From Haloarcula rubra (GTDB taxonomy: Archaea > Halobacteriota > Halobacteria > Halobacteriales > Haloarculaceae): 64,000 nt of DNA. How positions within the stretch are numbered: position 1 is the stretch's first letter; every line of letters starts with the position of its first letter. Under the pieces are notes generated by a model that saw nothing but the letters and a program-made list of their open reading frames with translations, did not search any database and had not been told where the DNA came from. A program made the position numbers and the translations under genes. The DNA is taken from positions 1 through 64,000 of the forward strand of contig NZ_RKLR01000012.1 of the NCBI RefSeq assembly GCF_019599465.1, in the 5' to 3' direction. Of this stretch, positions 39,819 through 57,698 are shown in pieces.

Positions 39819-39991
39819 TCATACTTGACTCGGTCAGAGAGCGTCAAAAGTGACGTGGACCAGTCGCGTCGGCACCATGTCTGTATTCACAGCGCCTGCC
39901 TCGTTGTATTGCGGGCATCAGTACGGGCACTGGAATCTGCGGTGGTCTCGAAACGATAATGTATATACGCTTCTGCCAACATTTGGCTAAT

Positions 39992-40951
39992 ATGGTTCGA
40001 CCAGCCTTAGTGCTCCCCCCAGAGCCCGACGAGCGGTGGCAACTGGCAAAGCAGATGGGCGTCACCGACGCCGTAATACATCCTCTCGAAATCGGCGATG
40101 ACAAAACTTCGTGGACCTATGACGAGCTCCGCGGACTCCAGAACTGGCTTGAAGACGCCGGCCTGAACTTCTCCGTACTGGAAGGCAGCGTTCCGCTAAC
40201 CGACCGCGTCCGCCTTGGGCTCAAGGGCCGAGACGAAGACATCGATGAATTCAAACAGTTCCTCCGGGACTGCGGCGACCTCGGTATCTCTGTCGTCTGT
40301 TACGACTGGATGGCCGGCGTCCGCTGGGCTCGGACTGAGGCACATATCGAGTCTCGCGGTGGGTCCTACGTGACCGGCTACGACAATCAGAAGATGCAGG
40401 GTGGACCGACTGTAGCGGCTTCCGAGCGTAGCCACGAAGAGATCTTCCAGGCGTTGGCGTATTTCCTTGAGGAGGTTATTCCAGTGGCCGAAGAGGCGGG
40501 CGTCAAGCTTGGACTCCACCCTGATGATCCGCCGCGCGAGTCCGTTCGCGACGTCCCCCGTGTCGCCAATAGTGTCGAGAACTACGAGCGAATCTTAGAT
40601 GTCGTCGACAGCGAGCACAACGGCGTCACGTTCTGCCAGGGCAACTTCGCCGCGATGGGTGCAGATATCCCGAAGGCGATTCGAAACTTCGGTGAGCGAA
40701 TCAACTTCGTTCATTTCCGTGATGTCGAGGGCGATGCAAACCAGTTCGTCGAGACATGGCACGACGACGGTCCGACAGACATGCACGCAGCGATGGCAGC
40801 CTACGAGGAGGCCGTCGACGGCGAGGTGCCGATGCGACCTGACCACGTGCCAACGATGGCCGGTGAGGACAACTCCAATCCCGGCTACCACACGAAGGGA
40901 CGACTGTTCGCAATCGGCTACATGCGTGGTCTGATGGATTCAGTCGAGTAG
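39992..40951 (+). CDS. uxuA: Mannonate dehydratase
   Basis: A 319-residue TIM-barrel enzyme that converts D-mannonate to 2-keto-3-deoxygluconate. The metal and catalytic set is complete: LGLHPDDPP, CQGN with its Cys, VHFRDV and RPDHVP. The substrate loop VCYDWMAGVRWARTEAH fits the classical UxuA pattern of CYxFMPVxxWxRTxL. The ATG at 39992 lies about 25-30 bp after a TATA box (GTATATAC), which supports a leaderless start. It stands opposite the glucuronidase-transporter operon and completes the isomerase route with UxaC and UxuB. Confidence 0.9.
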   Translation: MVRPALVLPPEPDERWQLAKQMGVTDAVIHPLEIGDDKTSWTYDELRGLQNWLEDAGLNFSVLEGSVPLTDRVRLGLKGRDEDIDEFKQFLRDCGDLGISVVCYDWMAGVRWARTEAHIESRGGSYVTGYDNQKMQGGPTVAASERSHEEIFQALAYFLEEVIPVAEEAGVKLGLHPDDPPRESVRDVPRVANSVENYERILDVVDSEHNGVTFCQGNFAAMGADIPKAIRNFGERINFVHFRDVEGDANQFVETWHDDGPTDMHAAMAAYEEAVDGEVPMRPDHVPTMAGEDNSNPGYHTKGRLFAIGYMRGLMDSVE

Positions 40952-41062: not shown

Positions 41063-42847
41063 TCACTGTTGCTCCGAGGTGTAGAAGTCCCGGAGGACGT
41101 GGAATGCTTTCTTTTTGCGACCGTGCTGATCAACGACGCCCTTCCGGTTGTAACCGCGCTGGTATTCGTTCTGGCGCATCGGTGCTCGGAAGTCGAAGAG
41201 GATCCACGGAGATATGCCGGCCACTTGCTCTTTTGCTGCGACCGCTTCCGTCTGACCCCGGTAGATTGCAGCCTGATACTCCTCACTCCAGCGGTCGTCC
41301 TCTGTTCCGTGGTTGCCCCACTTGGCACCGCCGCCGGTCTCGGAGATAACGACCGGCGTCCCGTCGGGATCATCCTGGAAGTGCTGCATATCCTCGGAAT
41401 CACCGTAGTACCATCCGAAGTACTCGTTGATACCAACCACGTCAAGGGCGTCCTCCAGCGGATCTTGGATGACAAGCCCGTCGTCGGTCTCGTCTACGAA
41501 ACACGCCGCGGTCACGAGTCGCGTGTCGTCGAGATTCCGGACATAATCGGCCATCTCTGGGAGCACCTCATTTCGAGTTTCGTCATTGTGGTCGGTCTCG
41601 TTCGCGATTGACCAGAGCACGACCGATGCGCGGTTCCAGTCGCGCTGAATCAGCTCGCGGAGCTGTTGCCGGTACAGCTCCTGTATGTCCTCGTCGCCGA
41701 AGTTGATGTCCCAGTATGCGGGGACTTCCTCCCAGAGGAGAATGCCTTCCTCGTCCGCCGTCCGGGCCATCTCTTCGGTGTGGGGATAATGTGCCAGCCG
41801 TGCGAAGTTACAGCCCAGTTCGTTGATCCACTGGAAGCGCGTCTGGACATCTTCTACGTCGAGCGCACGCCCCTTGCCAGCGACTTCCTCGTGGAGTGCT
41901 ATACCGCGGAGCCACACCTCCTCGCCGTTGACAAGGACATCGCTCCCTCGAACCTCAACCTCACGGAAGCCGACACGGTCGGTGACCGCGTCGTCGCCAT
42001 ACGTGAGTTCAATCTCGTACAGGCGTGGGTTATCAGGACTCCACAGTGTCAGGTCGTCGCGGTCGAACGAGAGCTCCGCGCTGAGCCGTCCATCACTGTC
42101 GGACGTGAGCGATTCGTCGACATCAAGTTCTGGGAGGGAGATAGCGGCCTCAGCTCCCGTATCGGACCCGTCAAGCCAGGCATCGATATGGACATCGACT
42201 GCATCATCGCTGACGGTAGTCTCGACTTTGAAGTTTCGCAGGTACGTTTCCGGGACCGAAACGAGGTCGACCGATCGGTTGACACCACCGAAGTTGTACC
42301 AGTCGGTGCTCTCGTTCGGAATACCGTCCTCGTAGCGCTTGTTATCCATCCGAAGGACGATCACGTTCTCGCCGTCTTGGAGTTCGTCGGTGATTTCGAA
42401 GCTGAAGGGTGTGTAGCCTCCCTCGTGGTCTCCGAGGCGCTCGCCGTTGAGCCAAACTTCTGCCTTGTAGTTTACCGCACCGAATCGGAGGAACGTGCGG
42501 TCTTGTTCGTCGATCTCCTCTCGGTCGAACGTCCGCGCGAACCACACCCAGCCTTCGAAGTGACGGAACTCGGGCATTTCCTCGCCCCAGCTAGATGGGA
42601 CATCCACCGAGTATCCGTCATAGATATTGAAGTCCGTGATGTCGTCGTTGCCCGACGCACTGGGCTCGTAGATCGATTCAAAGCTCAGCGCCGGCTGCCC
42701 GTCATCGTCAGGAAGTGCCGCAACGTCGTCGTCATCATCGTCGACGAAGTCGTCGAAGTAATCCCGGAACATCTCGTACTGATCGGGAATTGCCTGCCAT
42801 TCGCCGTCAAGCGAGTAGCTATCTCGCGGATACTCTAACAGTTGCAT
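41063..42847 (-). CDS. uidA: Beta-glucuronidase (glycoside hydrolase family 2)
   Basis: A 594-residue GH2 enzyme. The sugar-binding domain (to about 160), Ig-like domain (to about 260) and TIM barrel are in normal order. The acid/base Glu is in SIANETDHN near residue 414, and the nucleophile Glu is in ISETGGGAKWG near 502. NEYFGWYY and YNRKGVV (N-x-K near 566-568) are hallmarks of glucuronidases that hold the sugar carboxylate, so beta-galactosidase is unlikely. No signal peptide is seen, so it acts inside the cell on imported glucuronides. The start at ATG 42847 is preferred over the TTG at 42850. It is the last gene after the ABC importer, with its own promoter. Confidence 0.9.
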   Translation of the reverse strand: MQLLEYPRDSYSLDGEWQAIPDQYEMFRDYFDDFVDDDDDDVAALPDDDGQPALSFESIYEPSASGNDDITDFNIYDGYSVDVPSSWGEEMPEFRHFEGWVWFARTFDREEIDEQDRTFLRFGAVNYKAEVWLNGERLGDHEGGYTPFSFEITDELQDGENVIVLRMDNKRYEDGIPNESTDWYNFGGVNRSVDLVSVPETYLRNFKVETTVSDDAVDVHIDAWLDGSDTGAEAAISLPELDVDESLTSDSDGRLSAELSFDRDDLTLWSPDNPRLYEIELTYGDDAVTDRVGFREVEVRGSDVLVNGEEVWLRGIALHEEVAGKGRALDVEDVQTRFQWINELGCNFARLAHYPHTEEMARTADEEGILLWEEVPAYWDINFGDEDIQELYRQQLRELIQRDWNRASVVLWSIANETDHNDETRNEVLPEMADYVRNLDDTRLVTAACFVDETDDGLVIQDPLEDALDVVGINEYFGWYYGDSEDMQHFQDDPDGTPVVISETGGGAKWGNHGTEDDRWSEEYQAAIYRGQTEAVAAKEQVAGISPWILFDFRAPMRQNEYQRGYNRKGVVDQHGRKKKAFHVLRDFYTSEQQ

Positions 42848-42858
42848 CAATTATAGAC

Positions 42859-48045: not shown

Positions 48046-48870
48046 TCAGACGCCGCTGAACGCGGAGAATCCGCCGTCGATCGGAATCACTGTCCCGGTG
48101 ATGAACTCAGAACCGGGTGCAATCAGCCACAGAATGGTCGTCGAGAGGTCCTCCGGATCGCCGAATCGGCCTTGCGGAGTATGGTCGATGATAGACTGTC
48201 CGCGATCCGTGAACTCCCCGGTTTCCTCGTCGATCAACAGATAACGGTTCTGTTCGGTGAGGAAGAACCCCGGCGCAATCGCGTTCACGCGGATATCTGG
48301 GGAATACTCCTGTGCCATGTGGACGGCCAACCATTCCGTGAAGTTCGAGACGGCGGCCTTCGCGCCTGAATACCCGGGAATCTTGGTTAAAGGTGTGAAC
48401 GCGTTCATCGACGAAACGTTCAGGATCGTTCCCTTCCCCCGATCGGCCATGTACTTGCCGAAGGCCTGCGACGCGAGAATCGTTCCCACGAAGTTGATGT
48501 TAACGACACTTTCGAGGCCCTCCTTCGACAGATCGAAGAAGGACGTGTCTGCCCCCGTCGTTGCGTCGGGATGATTCCCGCCGGCGGCGTTGACGAGAAC
48601 GTCGATGCGCCCGAATTCGTCGACGACCGTCTCAGCGGCCGCATCCAGTTCAGCGCGGTCGAGCACCGACGCCGGAATAGTGATGGCATCGATCCCCCGT
48701 TCCGCAAGTTCGGCTCGTGTCTCCTCAAGTCCCTCTTCCCCGCGGGCGAGGAGTGCGACCTTGCCGCCGTTCTCACCGATCGCTTTTGCCATTTCGGAGC
48801 CCAAGACGCCCGATCCACCGGTTATCACGCAGACTTTGCCGTCGATATCGAAATCGTTTGGAACAGTCAT
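48046..48870 (-). CDS. uxuB: SDR-type D-mannonate oxidoreductase (fructuronate reductase)
   Basis: A 274-residue SDR. The nucleotide-binding motif is TGGSGVLG, the N-A-A-G motif is NAAGGNHPDATT (the GGNHPDATT extension marks SDR-type mannonate oxidoreductases), and the catalytic Ser and YxxxK are in LNVSSMNAF and YSGAKAA. It reduces fructuronate to mannonate with NAD(P)H, linking UxaC and UxuA. It is downstream of UxaC on the same strand with a 140-bp gap, which may hold a separate promoter. Confidence 0.85.
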   Translation of the reverse strand: MTVPNDFDIDGKVCVITGGSGVLGSEMAKAIGENGGKVALLARGEEGLEETRAELAERGIDAITIPASVLDRAELDAAAETVVDEFGRIDVLVNAAGGNHPDATTGADTSFFDLSKEGLESVVNINFVGTILASQAFGKYMADRGKGTILNVSSMNAFTPLTKIPGYSGAKAAVSNFTEWLAVHMAQEYSPDIRVNAIAPGFFLTEQNRYLLIDEETGEFTDRGQSIIDHTPQGRFGDPEDLSTTILWLIAPGSEFITGTVIPIDGGFSAFSGV

Positions 48871-49010: not shown

Positions 49011-50378
49011 CTACTCGAATCCGTAGAGAGACTTAGGTCGATCGTAGGCCAGGTGAGTCGCGAGATTCTCGGCATGAGCCATCGGTATTTGCCCTCGATC
49101 GACCAAGTCGCCAAGCATGTTCGCCAACGAACGGCGGAACATCTCGAAACGGGAACTGAACGACATCAGCTTCCGGGAATCACTCACCATCCCAGCATGA
49201 TTCGCGAGCAGGTCGACGCTGGCGACCTGACGCAATTGCTCGTCTATTCCATACGGACTGTCATTGAACCACCACGCAGGACCGACGCTGACGTTCGGGA
49301 ACGCCCGCGACAGTGTCGTGATGGACGGATAGTGTGTCGGGTCGACAGTGTAGAGGACAATATCCATTTCATTGTCGAACGTGTTCAGGAAATACCGGAG
49401 GTTATCTGTCAACTCGATCGACTGCGTCGAAACATCCCCACCCGCGTCGGCGCCGACAGTCTCGTAGAGGGAGTCACGGTAGTCGCGGACAGGCCCGATA
49501 TGAAGCTGCATGACCCAGTCTTTCTCGGCATTGAGCTTCCCTACCTCTTCGAGCAAGAACGCCTGAAGGTCACGAACACCCGTTTCCGTCAGGTTCTGTC
49601 CGTCGATGGCCCGTTGATAGAGGGTTCGCGCACGCTCTCGACTGACCGGTCTGGAGACTGGTTCGGTCAGACTGAGGTCGCTAGCCCGACAGCCGTGTTC
49701 AGCGAAGTAGTCGTGTGTCTGAGCCATGGCATCCAGGAACCCCGATAGCGTCTCGGTCCGAATTCCGGTTGCCGACTCAAGTTCTTCGACGAACCCATAC
49801 CACGATCCATTGTCAACCTGGAACGCTCGGTCAATGCGCCACGTCGGACACACGTTAAGCCCGTCAATGTCGTCGGCAGCACGTTCGTGCTCCGAGAGCG
49901 AAGAAGTCGGGTCGTCCGTCGTACAGAGAACTTCGACATCCATGGCATCGAGAAGTTCTTGAGGACGCATGTCACGGGTGGATAACTGTGCCTCTGTCTC
50001 GCGCCAGATCTCTTCAGCAGTCTCTGATGATATCGGCTTCTCGATACCAAACTGCCGTTGCAAATCGAGATGTATCCACTCGTAAGTCGGATTGCCCGCA
50101 AGTTCTGGGAAGACCTCCGCCAGTGCCATCCACTTTTCCTTGTTCGAGGCGTCGCCGGTTATCTTGTGCTCCGGAACACCTCGTTTTCGCATCATCGACC
50201 ATACGTAGTGGTCTGTCGCTCCTTCTACCTCCCAGATATCGTTCCAGCCGTCATTGGCTACGATTTCGTTGAGGTCAGCGTGACTGTGCGGGTCAACTAT
50301 CGGAAGATCTCTGATACTGTCGTACAGTTCAACAGCTTTCCCCGACTCAAGGAGGTAACTGTCATCAACGAAGCCCAT
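49011..50378 (-). CDS. uxaC: Glucuronate isomerase
   Basis: A 455-residue amidohydrolase-fold isomerase converting D-glucuronate to D-fructuronate. The start at ATG 50378 (MGFVDDSYLLESGKAVELYD) is chosen over ATG 50399 because the family begins this way and the TATA box TTTATATAT at 50401-50409 lies about 27 bp upstream, as for a leaderless transcript. Motifs are PIVDPHSHADLNEI (metal HxH), VLCTTDDP and GPAWWFNDSPYGID. It is the first enzyme of the isomerase route and sits beside UxuB. Confidence 0.92.
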   Translation of the reverse strand: MGFVDDSYLLESGKAVELYDSIRDLPIVDPHSHADLNEIVANDGWNDIWEVEGATDHYVWSMMRKRGVPEHKITGDASNKEKWMALAEVFPELAGNPTYEWIHLDLQRQFGIEKPISSETAEEIWRETEAQLSTRDMRPQELLDAMDVEVLCTTDDPTSSLSEHERAADDIDGLNVCPTWRIDRAFQVDNGSWYGFVEELESATGIRTETLSGFLDAMAQTHDYFAEHGCRASDLSLTEPVSRPVSRERARTLYQRAIDGQNLTETGVRDLQAFLLEEVGKLNAEKDWVMQLHIGPVRDYRDSLYETVGADAGGDVSTQSIELTDNLRYFLNTFDNEMDIVLYTVDPTHYPSITTLSRAFPNVSVGPAWWFNDSPYGIDEQLRQVASVDLLANHAGMVSDSRKLMSFSSRFEMFRRSLANMLGDLVDRGQIPMAHAENLATHLAYDRPKSLYGFE

Positions 50379-51145
50379 GTATTCGGGTCGCTGGTTCATA
50401 TATATAAATCTAACGACAAGCCGGGCGGTATCGAGTCGATTCTCTTGCAATCCAATAGATTCTCCAGCAACGAATCAGGTGAGAAAGGGCTTCAGACTGG
50501 GGCTTGTCCGAGCAGCTCGAGTTCATAAACGGCAGAGATAGCTCGTATGTCAGCCATTGCTGCTCGTTACGCAGTGCTCATTTGAGAATCGAATACCGGA
50601 AACGACCGTGTGTTCTCGAAGAGCGAATCACCAGTCAGTACGATAGCTTCAGCATCTAACTGTAGCAAAAATCAGACGAGACGGGTTGGAATAACACAAG
50701 TACAACAGTTATCTCATGAGTCCGTTTAAGCTGCGTCACGGTGTAGAAGGTCCTGAGTGGGAGATCGCTTCAAGTGATTATGACATTCTTAGGCCCTCAT
50801 CTAGCCGTTTCTCACTTGTCGAACGATTCTATCGGAAGTGATTGACAGGACTGGAGATCAACAAGCTGGTCCGAACGAGTTGGAAGCTGCACAGAGCACC
50901 GAGTGACGTCGGCCACCACTGTTACTAACACCAGTACACTAGTTATTTCCAACCAAAGGACCGCGTACTTCCTGTTCCGGCCCTGGAAGTATAGGTCCAG
51001 GTGCCAGACCTGCCTAGCGCGAAAGTTCCGAATGTAATTCGAATTGAAATATCTATTCTTCGTTTTCTGGCCCTTAGATGGTCTGAAACACAGGATTCGA
51101 TAGAAGAGAACAAGGTATAAGTGGCGTCGCTTTGTTGTATGAACT
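50379..51145. other. Intergenic stretch between uxaC and the IclR regulator
   Basis: About 770 bp. Its first bases hold the uxaC TATA box (TTTATATAT, 50401-50409). Elsewhere a minus-strand frame at 50812-51237 is open but has no recognised family and poor haloarchaeal bias. This divergent control region is where operators of the IclR protein may lie. Confidence 0.4.
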
Positions 51146-51910
51146 ATGCCCACGAACACGCCGCGAAAGATAGAGGCGGTCCGCAAGACCTGCCGAATTA
51201 TCGATATTCTCCAGACGCGTGGCGAGGCAGGTATCACGGAAATATCCGAAGAGATGGATTTTTCGAAGAGTGCAGTACACGGCCATCTCGCTACCCTCGC
51301 AGACGAGGGGCTCGTTGTGAAAGACGGACATTCGTATTATCTTAGTCTGCAGTTCGTCGACATCGCCGAATCAATCAAGGAGCGGATCGCGAAGCGAGAG
51401 ATCGTCAGAGAGCAAGTTCGTACGCTCGCAGAAGAAACCGGTGAAGTCGTTCACTTTGGTGCAGAGGAGAACGGGCAGGTAGTCTATCTCTCGAAATCCA
51501 AGGGTGATTCAGCAGTCGAGACCGCCTCGAAAGTCGGTAAACGGATGCCAATGCACTCGACATCGCTGGGCAAAGCAATACTGGCCGAACTACCAAGCGA
51601 AGACGCAGAACGAATCATCGACCAACACGAACTGACCGCACGGACAGAACACACGCTTACTGATCCTGACGAGCTGCTGGCGGAACTGGGCGAGACACGT
51701 GAGCGCGGATATTCCATCGACGACGAGGAAAACATCCCAGGGGTCCGCTGTATTGGGATGGCTGTCTCAGATCCGGAGGCAGGTGTCTTCGGCGCACTCA
51801 GCATCTCGGCACCATCCCAGCGGATGACAGAAGATAGAATCGAAAACGAACTCTCTGAGAAGATCGCGCAGGCCGCCAACGTCATCGAAGTCAACTCCAT
51901 GTACTCGTAA
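51146..51910 (+). CDS. IclR-family transcriptional regulator of the uronate cluster
   Basis: A 254-residue regulator. The N-terminal winged helix spans about residues 8-65 (VRKTCRIIDILQTRGEAGIT and SKSAVHGHLATLADEGLVV). The effector-binding domain follows, with MPMHSTSLGKAILAELP and a terminal GVRCIGMAVSDPEAGVFGAL. IclR proteins respond to small carboxylates and sugar acids. It is placed between the leftward isomerase arm and the rightward oxidative arm, so it probably controls both. Confidence 0.9.
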   Translation: MPTNTPRKIEAVRKTCRIIDILQTRGEAGITEISEEMDFSKSAVHGHLATLADEGLVVKDGHSYYLSLQFVDIAESIKERIAKREIVREQVRTLAEETGEVVHFGAEENGQVVYLSKSKGDSAVETASKVGKRMPMHSTSLGKAILAELPSEDAERIIDQHELTARTEHTLTDPDELLAELGETRERGYSIDDEENIPGVRCIGMAVSDPEAGVFGALSISAPSQRMTEDRIENELSEKIAQAANVIEVNSMYS

Positions 51911-51993: not shown

Positions 51994-53445
51994 ATGTCGG
52001 AGAGCTACAAGAATTATGTACGCGGTGAGTGGGTCACCGCCGAGTCCGGAGAGTTGTTCAAGGTTATCGATCCAGCACAGTCCGACGAAGTCGTCGGAAT
52101 GTATCAACAGTCCAGTGAAGCGGATGCTAACGGGGCGATAGAGGTCGCAGCTGCTGCACAGGACACGTGGGCGGCAACACCCGGACCGGAGCGGGGAGCG
52201 GTGCTGAAGCAGGCGGGCGACACGCTCGCGGACCGGAAAGAGGAAGCCATCGAGACGCTGGTTCGCGAAGAAGGGAAAGCACGGTCCGAAGCAGCGGGCG
52301 AAGTGCAGCGAGCTATCGATATCTTCGCGTACTACGGTCAGAAGGCGAGGGACCTCGGGGGGAAACACAAGGCGTCTAGCAGTCGCAGCACGGACCTCTA
52401 CACGAAAGTCGAACCGCTGGGGACCGTCGGACTCATTACGCCATGGAATTACCCAATCGCGATTCCGGCCTGGAAACTTGCCCCAGCACTCGCGGCAGGC
52501 AACTCTGTCGTCATCAAGCCCGCAACCGCTGCACCTGGCCCGACGCGAATACTCTTCGAGTGCCTCGATTCGGCTGGTCTGCCAGACGGCGTCGCAAATA
52601 TGGTCACAGGCTCTGGGAGCCAAGTCGGAACACCACTCGTCGAACACGACGACATCGATGGCGTGTCCTTCACTGGAAGTACGTCCGTCGGAACGCACAT
52701 CGCAGAGAGTGCCGCTGCGGAACGCAAGCGGGTTCAATGTGAGATGGGAGGAAAGAACCCGACTGTCGTGATGCCGAGTGCGGATCTCGACGAGGCTGCA
52801 GAAATAGTCGCGAATGGAGCTTTCGGCACGACGGGCCAATCCTGTACTGCCGCGTCACGGGCCATCGTTCACGAGGACGTCTACGAGTCGTTCGTTGAGA
52901 AAGTCGTCGAATACGCCGACTCAGTGGATATCGGTGCCGGTCTGGACGACCCAGATATGGGCCCACACGTTTCGAAGAGTGAGCTCGCCTCCACGCTGGA
53001 GTATGTCGATATCGGACGTGAGGAGGGTGCCACTCTCGAAACCGGCGGGACCCGATTGAACGAGAACGACTTCGAAGACGGATTCTACGTCGCTCCGACC
53101 GTATTCTCCGACGTGAGCAACGACATGCGCATCGCACAGGAGGAGATATTTGGCCCGGTGCTATCCGTCATCGAAGCTGGTGATTTCGACGACGCGATAG
53201 AGTTAGCGAACGACACCGACTACGGACTCGCCGCGAGCATCGTGACCGATCGACTCTCTGAGGCCGACGCGTTCGTCGACCGTATTGAATCCGGTGTCGC
53301 TAAAGTGAACGAGAAGACGACTGGGCTGGAGCTACACGTTCCCTTCGGCGGCTACAAAGACTCTTCGACGAATACCTACCGCGAACAAGGAGACGCTGGC
53401 CTCGATTTCTTCACCTCGACAAAGACCGTCTATCGAAATTACTGA
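51994..53445 (+). CDS. Aldehyde dehydrogenase, probable 2,5-dioxovalerate (2-oxoglutarate semialdehyde) dehydrogenase
   Basis: A 483-residue NAD(P)-dependent aldehyde dehydrogenase. It has the FTGSTSVG cofactor loop, catalytic Glu in EMGGKNPTVV (about 249), nucleophile Cys in GQSCTA (about 283) and EEIFGPVL near the C-terminus. Next to a KdgD-like protein, the best assignment is oxidation of 2,5-dioxovalerate to 2-oxoglutarate, the last step of the oxidative uronate route. It starts the rightward gene series after the IclR regulator. Specificity is inferred from context. Confidence 0.88.
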   Translation: MSESYKNYVRGEWVTAESGELFKVIDPAQSDEVVGMYQQSSEADANGAIEVAAAAQDTWAATPGPERGAVLKQAGDTLADRKEEAIETLVREEGKARSEAAGEVQRAIDIFAYYGQKARDLGGKHKASSSRSTDLYTKVEPLGTVGLITPWNYPIAIPAWKLAPALAAGNSVVIKPATAAPGPTRILFECLDSAGLPDGVANMVTGSGSQVGTPLVEHDDIDGVSFTGSTSVGTHIAESAAAERKRVQCEMGGKNPTVVMPSADLDEAAEIVANGAFGTTGQSCTAASRAIVHEDVYESFVEKVVEYADSVDIGAGLDDPDMGPHVSKSELASTLEYVDIGREEGATLETGGTRLNENDFEDGFYVAPTVFSDVSNDMRIAQEEIFGPVLSVIEAGDFDDAIELANDTDYGLAASIVTDRLSEADAFVDRIESGVAKVNEKTTGLELHVPFGGYKDSSTNTYREQGDAGLDFFTSTKTVYRNY

Positions 53446-53579: not shown

Positions 53580-54518
53580 ATGACACTCGGTATAGAGGAG
53601 GTCAAAGACCGTCTTAGAGGTGTGGCGGTCGGTCTCTTGACCCCCTTCGACGACCAAGGTGAGATAGAGTACTGGAAGATTGAAAAAAACGCACAGGCAC
53701 ATTATAAACGCGGAATTCGCACGTATCTCGCGGCTGCGAACATCAGCGAGTACCACTCCTTGTCTCAGGAAGAGCGTGTTGAGGTGACCGAAACGAGCGT
53801 GAAAGGGCTCCCATCCAACGCGTGTGTACTCGCTGGCGTCGGTGGGAGCACGTCGGCAGCCCGTGATTTGATTCAGGCCTACGACCGCATCGGCGTCGAC
53901 GCGATGATGATAATGCCGCCAGACCACACGTACCTGCACGAACGTGGGTTGCTCGACTACTATCACAAATTAGCCGACGTGACCGAAACGCCGCTGGTCC
54001 CGTACGTCCGTGGCTTCGACCCATCTGTCGAGTATCTCGCGGAGCTTTCTCGAATCGACGGTGTCGCTGGCATCAAGTATGCTCTCGAAGATCCGATAAA
54101 ACTCGGTGCGGCGACGAGCAAGGGTGCTGACGACGTCGTGTGGGTCAACGGCTTAGCAGAGCCCTACGCAGTCTCCTACTGGGCCGAGGGTGCAGAAGGC
54201 TTCTCCGCTGGTGTAAGCAATTTCCGGCCAGAGGTCGGTCTCGCCCTGTTCGAAGCACTCTCGAACGGGGACTGGGAACGCGCTCGAAACCTCCGGGATA
54301 TCTGTCTGCCCTATCAGAACTTCCGCGACCGAACCGGCCAAAACAACTCGATTGCAGGCGCTATCAGTGTCCCGGCTGTAAAGAAGGGCCTCGAACTCGC
54401 CGGGATGCACGGTGGGAGTGTGCGAGAGCCGATCCAGCCCCTGTCATCGGTAGAAGCACAAGAAGCGACGGAGATCTACAACAAATTGGACGACGATATC
54501 GCACGGCTGATTGAGTGA
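53580..54518 (+). CDS. DapA-family lyase, probable 5-dehydro-4-deoxyglucarate dehydratase (KdgD)
   Basis: A 312-residue TIM-barrel protein of the dihydrodipicolinate synthase/N-acetylneuraminate lyase family. The Schiff-base Lys is in GIKYALED near residue 165 and the helper Tyr in PLVPYVRGF. The C-terminal GFSAGVSNFRPEVGLALFEA, then P-x3-FRDR, resembles KdgD rather than DapA. KdgD yields 2,5-dioxovalerate with loss of water and CO2, the substrate of the preceding gene product. A 2-keto-3-deoxygluconate aldolase is an alternative. A TATA box (TTATTTATAC) about 35 bp upstream supports the ATG at 53580. Confidence 0.75.
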   Translation: MTLGIEEVKDRLRGVAVGLLTPFDDQGEIEYWKIEKNAQAHYKRGIRTYLAAANISEYHSLSQEERVEVTETSVKGLPSNACVLAGVGGSTSAARDLIQAYDRIGVDAMMIMPPDHTYLHERGLLDYYHKLADVTETPLVPYVRGFDPSVEYLAELSRIDGVAGIKYALEDPIKLGAATSKGADDVVWVNGLAEPYAVSYWAEGAEGFSAGVSNFRPEVGLALFEALSNGDWERARNLRDICLPYQNFRDRTGQNNSIAGAISVPAVKKGLELAGMHGGSVREPIQPLSSVEAQEATEIYNKLDDDIARLIE

Positions 54519-54566: not shown

Positions 54567-55637
54567 ATGACACAAAACATGACAAGCGACACAGAATCGC
54601 TCCCGTTGCGGAGTGGACTCAGGACACGGACGCTCTCGGACGAACGACTTCGCTTCTGCCGGCAGATCGGCGTCGAAGACATCTTTCTAGACCACCGGGA
54701 TCCGCGTGGCGACGTTTTTGAAGACGAGGGTAGCAACGACAGCGAAACGATCACGATTGACGAAGGCGTCGTCCCGTCCGTTTCCGAGTTAGTACAGGCG
54801 CGCCGGCGCGCAGAAGATGCGGGCCTGCGGCTGATGGGCATCCAGTCGCTGAGTTACAACGTCTACGGAAAGATCATGCTCGGCAAGGATGGACAGGAAG
54901 CGCAACTGGAAACCATCAAGAATCTCATCCGGAACGTGGGACAGGCCGATATTCCGATACTGGGCTATCAGTGGAATCCGCGGGGCGTCGTGCCGATGCG
55001 CACATCACAGACGGTCCGTCTGCGTGGCGATGCGCGAGGGAGAGGCTTCGACATCGAGGACATCTCCGACCCGTACGAACGAGCCCCAGGTGTGGAGCGT
55101 GAGTACGAGGAAGCGGAACTCTGGGACAACTACGAACGATTCCTCGAAGAGGTCCTGCCCGTTGCCGAAGAGGCAGGCGTCGAGATGGCACTTCACCCCG
55201 CCGACCCACCCACGGTCGAACAACTCGGCGGTATCCCCCGCCTGTTTCGTAGCTTTGAGGCGTTCCAGCGCGCGATGGATCTTGTGCCGAGCGAGAATCA
55301 CGGACTTAAGCTCTGCCTTGGATGCTTCTCTGAGATGCCGGACACGGACATCACTGATGTGATAGAGTACTTCGGCTCTAACGACGATATCGTCTTCGTC
55401 CACTTCCGAGATGTCATCGGCACCTGGCCGAGTTTCACGGAGACGTTCGTCGACGACGAGCAGAGTAACTTCGATGCACTAGACGCTGTCGAAGCGCTAC
55501 AAGAGGTCGGGTTCGATGGCGTGATGGTTCCGGACCACGTCCCAGAAATCGTTGACGACACTGAGTGGGGCCACCGCTCCCGAGCCCATGCAATCGCGTA
55601 TCTCAACGGTCTGCTCGCGTGTTCTCGGCGGGAGTAA
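54567..55637 (+). CDS. UxuA-family dehydratase paralogue in the oxidative operon
   Basis: A 356-residue protein of the mannonate dehydratase family. The metal-site motifs are conserved (LHPADPP, LCLGC, FVHFRDV, VPDHVPE). Compared with UxuA at 39992, the active-site loop differs: LGYQWNPRGVVPMRTSQT and RLRGDARGRGFD replace the Cys-Tyr-Asp-Trp/Arg-Trp-x-Arg-Thr pattern. It sits between KdgD and uronate dehydrogenase genes, where an aldarate dehydratase is expected and none is otherwise seen. It may act on mannonate or on an aldarate; the second idea is inference. ATGs at 54567 and 54579 are both possible. Confidence 0.8.
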   Translation: MTQNMTSDTESLPLRSGLRTRTLSDERLRFCRQIGVEDIFLDHRDPRGDVFEDEGSNDSETITIDEGVVPSVSELVQARRRAEDAGLRLMGIQSLSYNVYGKIMLGKDGQEAQLETIKNLIRNVGQADIPILGYQWNPRGVVPMRTSQTVRLRGDARGRGFDIEDISDPYERAPGVEREYEEAELWDNYERFLEEVLPVAEEAGVEMALHPADPPTVEQLGGIPRLFRSFEAFQRAMDLVPSENHGLKLCLGCFSEMPDTDITDVIEYFGSNDDIVFVHFRDVIGTWPSFTETFVDDEQSNFDALDAVEALQEVGFDGVMVPDHVPEIVDDTEWGHRSRAHAIAYLNGLLACSRRE

Positions 55638-55739
55638 CAGCCGCTGACCGGCGGTATCCGAACTAACCAGTTTAATAGTGAAGACACGTTGTGGGAACAT
55701 ATCGCAAGTTTATTTGATTGCTTAACCGAGGTATGTTCT

Positions 55740-56603
55740 ATGAACGTGCTGGTCACCGGCGCATACGGTCGGTGTGGAACCGCCATAATCGACAATCTGC
55801 ACCAGAGCTCGGACTACGAGTTAACGTATCTGAACCGCTCTGACCGGCCTGACGATCACCGATACGGTTCGTTCGATACGCACGTCGCCGACGTATCCGA
55901 CTACAATGCGATTCGTCCCGCCTTCGACGGGCAGGACGCCGTCGTTCATCTTGCAGCCTATCCCTACACTGACGGCGACTGGTCAGATGTTTTCGAACCG
56001 AACATCCTCGGGATGTACAACGTCTTAGAGGCTGCACGGGACGCGGAAGTTGAGTCCTTTGTGTTCGGATCTACGAACCACGTGCAAGGGCTGTACGAAG
56101 CCGAACTAGCACCCGATATCTACCGGCGGGAACACCCGCTATTACTCGACCACACGGACCCCGTCCGGCCGGATTCGTTCTACGGTGCGACGAAATCGTT
56201 CGGCGAAGATATCGGCCGGTATTACGCGGAAGCAATGGATTGGCCGCGACGGTTCTATGCCCTGCGTATCTGTACTGTTCAGTCGGCCGCATACGACAAT
56301 CCATACGGCCCTGCAGAGAGACGCGTCGAAGAAGGCGAAATCACTCGGGGCGACGCAGCGTATCAACAATCAGTGAAGCGAACGAAAGCCACGTGGCACT
56401 CCCGTCGTGACTTCGCTCACCTGATCGACTGTTGTCTGCAGGACTCTGACGTGACTTACGGGATATTCAACGGCGTCAGCGCTAATGACCGCCGCTGGTT
56501 CTCCATCCAGAACGCTCGCGAACGACTCGGATATCAGCCCCAGGACAATGGCGAAACTTGGAACGAACCCCCCACGACCGAGCAGCGCGACACGGAGTCG
56601 TAA
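55740..56603 (+). CDS. udh: Uronate dehydrogenase (NAD-dependent epimerase/dehydratase fold)
   Basis: A 287-residue extended SDR. The Rossmann motif is TGAYGRCG (Gly-x-x-Gly-x-x-Gly), with SFYGATKSFGE giving YxxxK near residue 146 and FGSTNHVQGLY as the uronate-dehydrogenase substrate loop. It oxidises glucuronate or galacturonate to the aldarolactone with NAD. The ATG at 55740 is preferred; an in-frame extension begins at 55689. It is followed by a lactonase gene 48 bp downstream, the next step of the pathway. Confidence 0.85.
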   Translation: MNVLVTGAYGRCGTAIIDNLHQSSDYELTYLNRSDRPDDHRYGSFDTHVADVSDYNAIRPAFDGQDAVVHLAAYPYTDGDWSDVFEPNILGMYNVLEAARDAEVESFVFGSTNHVQGLYEAELAPDIYRREHPLLLDHTDPVRPDSFYGATKSFGEDIGRYYAEAMDWPRRFYALRICTVQSAAYDNPYGPAERRVEEGEITRGDAAYQQSVKRTKATWHSRRDFAHLIDCCLQDSDVTYGIFNGVSANDRRWFSIQNARERLGYQPQDNGETWNEPPTTEQRDTES

Positions 56604-56651: not shown

Positions 56652-57698
56652 GTGACACAAAAATTTCCCATAGCAGTTATTGGGACGTATAGCCCTGCAA
56701 ACAGTGCGGGAGTCCACACGGTCGCAGTCAATCCGGATACCGGTGCGTTGGACCAACTCGACTCCGTCGTCGCTGGCCCGGACCCTACGTTCGTCGCATC
56801 ACATCCGCACGACGATTACATCTACGCCGCAGTTCGAGCTGAACCAGAAGGTGTCATCAAGGCCTTCCAGGTTGACAACGACACCGGCGAGCTATCGCTC
56901 GTAAACAGCGTCGAGAGTGGGGCACTCAGCCCTTGTCACTGTAGTGTCGATGCGACAGGAGAGTACCTGTTTGTTGCTCATTACACAGGTGGGGCTGTGT
57001 CGATGCTCCCGCTCAAAGCCGATGGTGGAGTGGCTGCGCCGACTGCAGTTATAGAACATAGCGGCTCCAGTACCGATCCTAACAGGCAGACAAGTCCACA
57101 TCCGCACTCGGTCAATCCCGGGCCGGATAACGACTACCTCTATGTTCCGGATCTCGGAACTGATCAAGTCGTAATTTACGATATTCGGCCTGAAGAGGAC
57201 AATATCGCATTGTATCAGACGGTGGATATCGAACCTGGGTCCGGTCCACGCCACCTCTCTTTCAGTCCCGACGACGAGTATGTATACCTCATCAACGAAC
57301 TTGATTCGACGGTTACCGTCTTCCAGCGAACCCTCGACGGTGAGTTGACGAAGGAGTCGAAGGTATCCACTCTCCCATCCGATTTCGATGAAAAAAACAA
57401 GACTGCGGAGATCCAAGTTCATCCCTCCGGCCGATACGTGTTCGCCTCGAACCGGGGTCGAGACACTATCGTCACATTCGCTGTTGATGGTGACGAACTA
57501 CATCGCATTGAGGAGGCACCGACCGGTGGCGAGTGGCCCCGGCATTTCAACGTTTGTCCGACGGGAGAGACTCTCTTTGTAGAAAATCGGGATACCGACG
57601 AGGTAATCGCCTTCGATATCGACATCGAGACAGGTGGTCTCACTCAAACCGAACAACGATTGAACGTCACAGAACCGGTTTGTCTTCAGTGGATTTGA
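56652..57698 (+). CDS. Lactonase-family seven-bladed beta-propeller protein
   Basis: A 348-residue protein of the 6-phosphogluconolactonase/lactonase beta-propeller family. Blade repeats are seen as VNPDTGALDQLDSV, FQVDNDTGELSLVNS and others, with a QTSPHPHSVNPGPDNDYLYV loop of the family. It starts at GTG 56652. Next to uronate dehydrogenase it probably opens the aldaro-lactone to the free aldarate. Phosphogluconolactonase activity is less likely in this context. Confidence 0.83.
   Translation: MTQKFPIAVIGTYSPANSAGVHTVAVNPDTGALDQLDSVVAGPDPTFVASHPHDDYIYAAVRAEPEGVIKAFQVDNDTGELSLVNSVESGALSPCHCSVDATGEYLFVAHYTGGAVSMLPLKADGGVAAPTAVIEHSGSSTDPNRQTSPHPHSVNPGPDNDYLYVPDLGTDQVVIYDIRPEEDNIALYQTVDIEPGSGPRHLSFSPDDEYVYLINELDSTVTVFQRTLDGELTKESKVSTLPSDFDEKNKTAEIQVHPSGRYVFASNRGRDTIVTFAVDGDELHRIEEAPTGGEWPRHFNVCPTGETLFVENRDTDEVIAFDIDIETGGLTQTEQRLNVTEPVCLQWI

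Follow-up and report, generated by a model that had tools for sequence, protein, structure and literature searches.

Which protein dehydrates the aldarate in the oxidative glucuronate cluster of Haloarcula rubra? The cluster lies in the stretch of 64,000 nucleotides analysed here (the window). An earlier note on this DNA had proposed that the step falls to a paralogue of the mannonate dehydratase UxuA, which we call UXUP. The genes that bear on the question are the following.

39959–40951, + strand: canonical UxuA mannonate dehydratase with the RPDH and GY motifs (NF003027, 234.5 versus 191 bits)
41063–42850, − strand: GH2 protein, possible source of glucuronate (best NCBIfam match beta-glucuronidase, below cut-off)
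48046–48870, − strand: SDR D-mannonate oxidoreductase (NF006132, above cut-off)
49011–50450, − strand: glucuronate isomerase UxaC, isomerase branch of glucuronate catabolism (NF002794, above cut-off)
51146–51910, + strand: IclR-family regulator, conserved upstream of most of the close-orthologue clusters described below
51994–53445, + strand: KGSADH, 2-oxoglutarate semialdehyde (2,5-dioxovalerate) dehydrogenase (passes NF052305, 827 versus 750 bits)
53580–54518, + strand: KdgD-type DHDPS-family protein, probable 5-keto-4-deoxyglucarate dehydratase/decarboxylase (below the TIGR03249 cut-off)
54567–55637, + strand: UXUP, UxuA-family paralogue and candidate D-glucarate dehydratase (from the ORF, profile scores and residue alignment)
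55737–56603, + strand: Udh, uronate dehydrogenase homologue of the short-chain dehydrogenases (nearest solved structures are uronate dehydrogenases)
56652–57698, + strand: 7-bladed beta-propeller lactonase, probable glucarolactonase (PF10282)

The rightward genes run in the order IclR, KGSADH, KdgD-type, UXUP, Udh and lactonase, so that UXUP does sit between KdgD and Udh, as had been noted. An ABC transporter lies on the other side of the cluster, together with UxaC and the SDR mannonate oxidoreductase. The KdgD, Udh and lactonase assignments all fall below equivalog cut-offs; the KdgD-type protein contains the Schiff-base lysine region GIKYA. From its genes, the window therefore holds two branches: an isomerase branch that has a UxuA to itself, and an oxidative one in which the aldarate dehydratase is the sole unassigned step. 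UxaC, the mannonate oxidoreductase and the canonical UxuA would make up the isomerase branch, running in parallel.

The local absence of an aldarate dehydratase, as claimed earlier, is borne out: no conventional one is encoded in the window or on its 97-kb contig, and the possibility of one in the same regulon was rejected on that ground. The bacterial-type glucarate dehydratase is also absent on a wider scale. The TIGR03247 model at E ≤ 1e-60 matched nothing in 391 haloarchaeal genomes, with the E. coli and B. subtilis controls recovered, and the H. rubra genome contains no GarD-type (PF04295) gene. That genome does contain nine to eleven enolase-superfamily genes, two of which pass the galactonate dehydratase cut-off; several others are sugar-acid dehydratases without a substrate assignment.

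UXUP is a 356-residue ORF with an ATG start. It scores 167.7 bits against Pfam UxuA (PF03786; cut-off 23.7), which places it in the superfamily, and with a canonical UxuA also in the window the description of it as a paralogue was correct. It falls under the cut-offs of both mannonate dehydratase models (TIGR00695, 98.8 under 199.6 bits; NF003027, 138.3 under 191 bits). Its profile matches are to UxuA models only, and TIGR03247 (GlucD) does not claim it. Among proteins of solved structure, those nearest to it in sequence are mannonate dehydratases (3ban, 1tz9 and 4eac). An AlphaFold2 model (pLDDT 79.5, pTM 0.83, built from an 11-sequence alignment) has 3ban as its top structural match at a TM of about 0.8, which predicts a UxuA-type barrel; the active-site loops at beta2 and beta4 are of low confidence.

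The active site is in part conserved. UXUP H210, C250, H279 and D323 align with S. suis H199, C237, H266 and D310, which we take from the S. suis structure to be the metal ligands, and in this respect the metal site is retained, as had been claimed. The catalytic His311 (S. suis numbering here and below) is kept as H324. The strongest differences went unmentioned in the earlier note: Trp334 stands in place of Tyr325, and Val321 in place of Arg308, the Arg of RPDH. Tyr325 and His311 were reportedly shown to be essential in a study of the S. suis mannonate dehydratase. The substrate loop said to be changed is indeed different at beta4, reading WNPRGVVPMRTS versus WMAGVRWARTE, but R145, R153 and G154 are retained within it. 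There is also an insertion of about 20 residues at 43–65, whose DHR-PRGD form, among the representatives compared, occurs only in clade A (defined below) and in relatives from Natrialba. If glucarate is bound, R44, R47, R157 and R159 are candidate loop residues for contacting its second carboxylate.

These residues were followed through an alignment of 91 sequences, 78 from the UXUP subfamily and 13 canonical. Because the Arg of RPDH served to split the two groups, the loss of Arg308 in 78/78 subfamily sequences and its presence in 13/13 canonical ones is by definition, and the independent difference is at Tyr325, where the subfamily has Trp (78/78) and the canonical sequences Tyr (13/13). In the sequences examined, the motif RPDH...GY versus [VIL]PDH...W tells the two groups apart. 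The catalytic His is kept throughout this W-type subfamily, and the metal-site residues in nearly all members. UXUP falls in clade A, 16 sequences of at least 79% identity with a support of 1.0; the node uniting the whole subfamily is poorly supported (0.29) and contains no canonical sequence. Both changes also occur in clades whose genes adjoin either UxaC within xylan-type clusters or GH115 genes. Since it is common to the whole subfamily, clades in other contexts included, the Tyr-to-Trp change alone does not assign a substrate, and the loss of Tyr and Arg was rejected as a glucarate signature.

The gene context is more discriminating. A UxuA-family match is found in 126 of the 391 haloarchaeal genomes, and 13 close orthologues of UXUP (at least 79% identity) are found among them. 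In all 13, Udh follows in the same orientation at a distance of less than 300 bp, versus 0/79 with Udh directly downstream for the other subfamily members listed. A KdgD-type gene is present in 12/13 of these loci, KGSADH in 9/13 and the lactonase in 9/13, with no lactonase found in the other four. The cluster with KdgD, KGSADH and lactonase recurs across several families. H. turkmenica carries the UXUP–Udh cluster; for this organism, an earlier haloarchaeal survey deduced the isomerase pathway and no other (PMC3102087).

Viewed from the side of Udh, 78 loci divide into 12 with a close UXUP orthologue only, 27 with an enolase-superfamily gene that we call Gci-like only, one with both, four near a more distant UXUP relative and 34 with neither. 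UXUP and the Gci-like gene are near-exclusive of one another at Udh loci. The nearest solved structure to the Gci-like protein is 4ggb/4hpn, presumably the galactarolactone cycloisomerase of Agrobacterium, and its gene occurs in 48/391 haloarchaeal genomes. A second haloarchaeal oxidative uronate cluster, with a Udh paralogue and the Gci-like protein, is seen at loci L134–L144 and L146–L147. The Natrialba relatives of UXUP (69–71% identity, L010–L012) lie beside a KdgD-like gene, with an Ldh_2 gene or a TRAP transporter at some loci, and Udh was not found near them, a context possibly compatible with direct uptake of an aldarate.

With Tyr325 lost and Udh always adjacent, UXUP probably performs the missing step, the dehydration of glucarate. 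We consider it likely that UXUP completes an oxidative glucuronate pathway as its aldarate dehydratase, and comparative genomics strongly supports such a role. The candidacy proposed in the earlier note is strengthened by the adjacency to Udh (all close orthologues, none of the other members listed), by the recurrence of the cluster and by the Gci-like gene in the same slot; it is weakened by the enolase-superfamily sugar-acid dehydratases available in trans and by the occurrence of the same residue changes in other contexts.

The route that we infer, including the substrate and product of UXUP, its catalytic details and the identity of its metal, would run as follows. Udh would oxidize D-glucuronate to glucarolactone, which the beta-propeller lactonase, or water, would open to D-glucarate. 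With a divalent metal and His324, UXUP would take the proton from C5 and drive off the hydroxyl at C4, and 5-keto-4-deoxy-D-glucarate would result. KdgD would convert this to 2-oxoglutarate semialdehyde, and KGSADH would carry the semialdehyde to 2-oxoglutarate. A Fischer comparison speaks to the choice of substrate. Numbered from C6, D-glucarate has the configuration of D-mannonate at C2, C3 and C4, so UxuA chemistry would give the substrate of KdgD, 5-keto-4-deoxy-D-glucarate. D-mannarate also matches D-mannonate, though the product would differ. Galactarate matches in neither direction: when C2 fits the mannonate-type elimination, C3 is mismatched. The surrounding genes point to glucuronate as well, and galactarate was rejected as the main substrate. 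Where glucarate and galactarate had been offered as equals, then, stereochemistry favours the first and disfavours the second.

The names in the databases suggest something else, that UXUP works in the isomerase branch as a D-mannonate dehydratase, either redundant or diverged. RefSeq labels the UXUP orthologues mannonate dehydratase, and UXUP is a member of PF03786; UxaC and a mannonate oxidoreductase are nearby, and G277 and G256, both of which have W-type relatives, showed no canonical UxuA. We regard this as unlikely. UXUP scores under both mannonate dehydratase cut-offs and is without the Tyr and Arg of all the canonical sequences, the isomerase branch already has a canonical UxuA in the window, and the strict partner of UXUP is Udh rather than mannonate oxidoreductase. 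Most of the W-type genomes checked in which the gene lies beside UxaC have a canonical UxuA elsewhere and no close mannonate oxidoreductase. Alternatively, UXUP might be the counterpart, with a UxuA fold, of galactarolactone cycloisomerase, taking glucarolactone as its substrate and converting it directly to the keto-deoxy acid. It occupies the slot held by the Gci-like gene at other Udh loci, and the four clusters in which no lactonase was found would fit. However, a lactonase gene is alongside in the other nine, no Udh was found near the Natrialba relative, and UxuA chemistry is established on open-chain acids; we think action on the lactone quite unlikely.

There is also the reading that UXUP is an epimerase or isomerase of aldarates or uronates, with dehydration carried out in trans by an enolase-superfamily dehydratase. 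The fold is common to sugar 3-epimerases, and the unassigned enolase-superfamily genes would be candidates for the second enzyme; in G337, the nearest relative, an EN2-type gene of that superfamily is about 5 kb away. Yet sugar 3-epimerases fit the UXUP model at a TM of 0.56–0.61, clearly behind the UxuA structures, and no enolase-superfamily gene is listed within 10 kb at 11 of the 13 clade A loci. Close orthologues of the EN2-type enolase (at least 74%) are present in 4/13 of the close-orthologue genomes, and for this reason it was rejected as a hidden dehydratase. An epimerase with a partner in trans therefore seems very improbable to us.

Returning to UXUP as a glucarate dehydratase, its place among known systems can be described. 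With UxuA (PF03786; S. suis 3ban, E. coli 4eac), it has in common the TIM barrel, the four metal-ligand positions, the PDH catalytic His and, as we would have it, a sugar-acid dehydration that yields a 2-keto-3-deoxy acid. It differs by Trp for Tyr325, Val for Arg308, an inserted beta2 loop, scores below the mannonate dehydratase cut-offs and its location with Udh. GudD/GlucD of the enolase superfamily (TIGR03247) has the same proposed reaction, D-glucarate to 5-keto-4-deoxy-D-glucarate, but UXUP belongs to an unrelated family with a different active site. The pathway logic is that of the Agrobacterium series Udh, Gci, KdgD and KGSADH, with the other steps alike; there an enolase-superfamily cycloisomerase works on the lactone, whereas the haloarchaeal cluster has a UxuA-like protein and a lactonase. 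Also comparable is a variant consisting of Udh, a UxuL/UxuF lactonase and an aldarate dehydratase, in which the lactone is opened and the dehydratase takes the free aldarate; in the haloarchaeal cluster that dehydratase would be of the UxuA family. This variant is among the catalogued ones, and opening of glucaro-1,5-lactone to glucarate by a lactonase is established in bacteria (PMC6353982).

On balance, we lean towards the view that a metal-dependent D-glucarate dehydratase of the UxuA fold, without the Tyr, has replaced the enolase-superfamily enzyme in the oxidation of glucuronate by haloarchaea, and that it is part of a widespread W-type subfamily, named mannonate dehydratase in databases, whose members dehydrate other sugar acids. 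If so, the missing step of haloarchaeal oxidative glucuronate catabolism would be filled, by a non-orthologous replacement of glucarate dehydratase; the UxuA family would gain a new job on a second class of substrate, and the RefSeq label of mannonate dehydratase would need correction for such proteins. The literature searched, which takes in a minority of subscription journals, yielded no description of an aldarate dehydratase from the UxuA family.

Other W-type relatives are found in varied surroundings. Those at L116–L118, L120–L122 and L124 (44–51% identity) are near UxaC and often near GH43-like genes; at L116 and L120, a nearby ORF of 360–381 aa resembles, by eye, a luciferase-type flavin oxidoreductase. 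Those at L083, L086, L087 and L088 (57–58%) adjoin genes of GH115, the alpha-glucuronidase family, and one also adjoins GH88, suggesting glucuronoxylan-derived acids as substrates. Alphaproteobacterial relatives (37–38%, L071 and L072) are clustered with a gene for a beta-propeller lactonase, and the Marinovum cluster also encodes an aldehyde dehydrogenase, an FAA-hydrolase protein and a NAD-dependent epimerase-family protein. On a Microvirga plasmid (L070:7971–10035), a Y-type and a W-type UxuA are in tandem. One further UxuA gene, the third, has the canonical RPDH/GY motifs and lies at G000:C31:183671–184579, with two enolase-superfamily genes within 20 kb.
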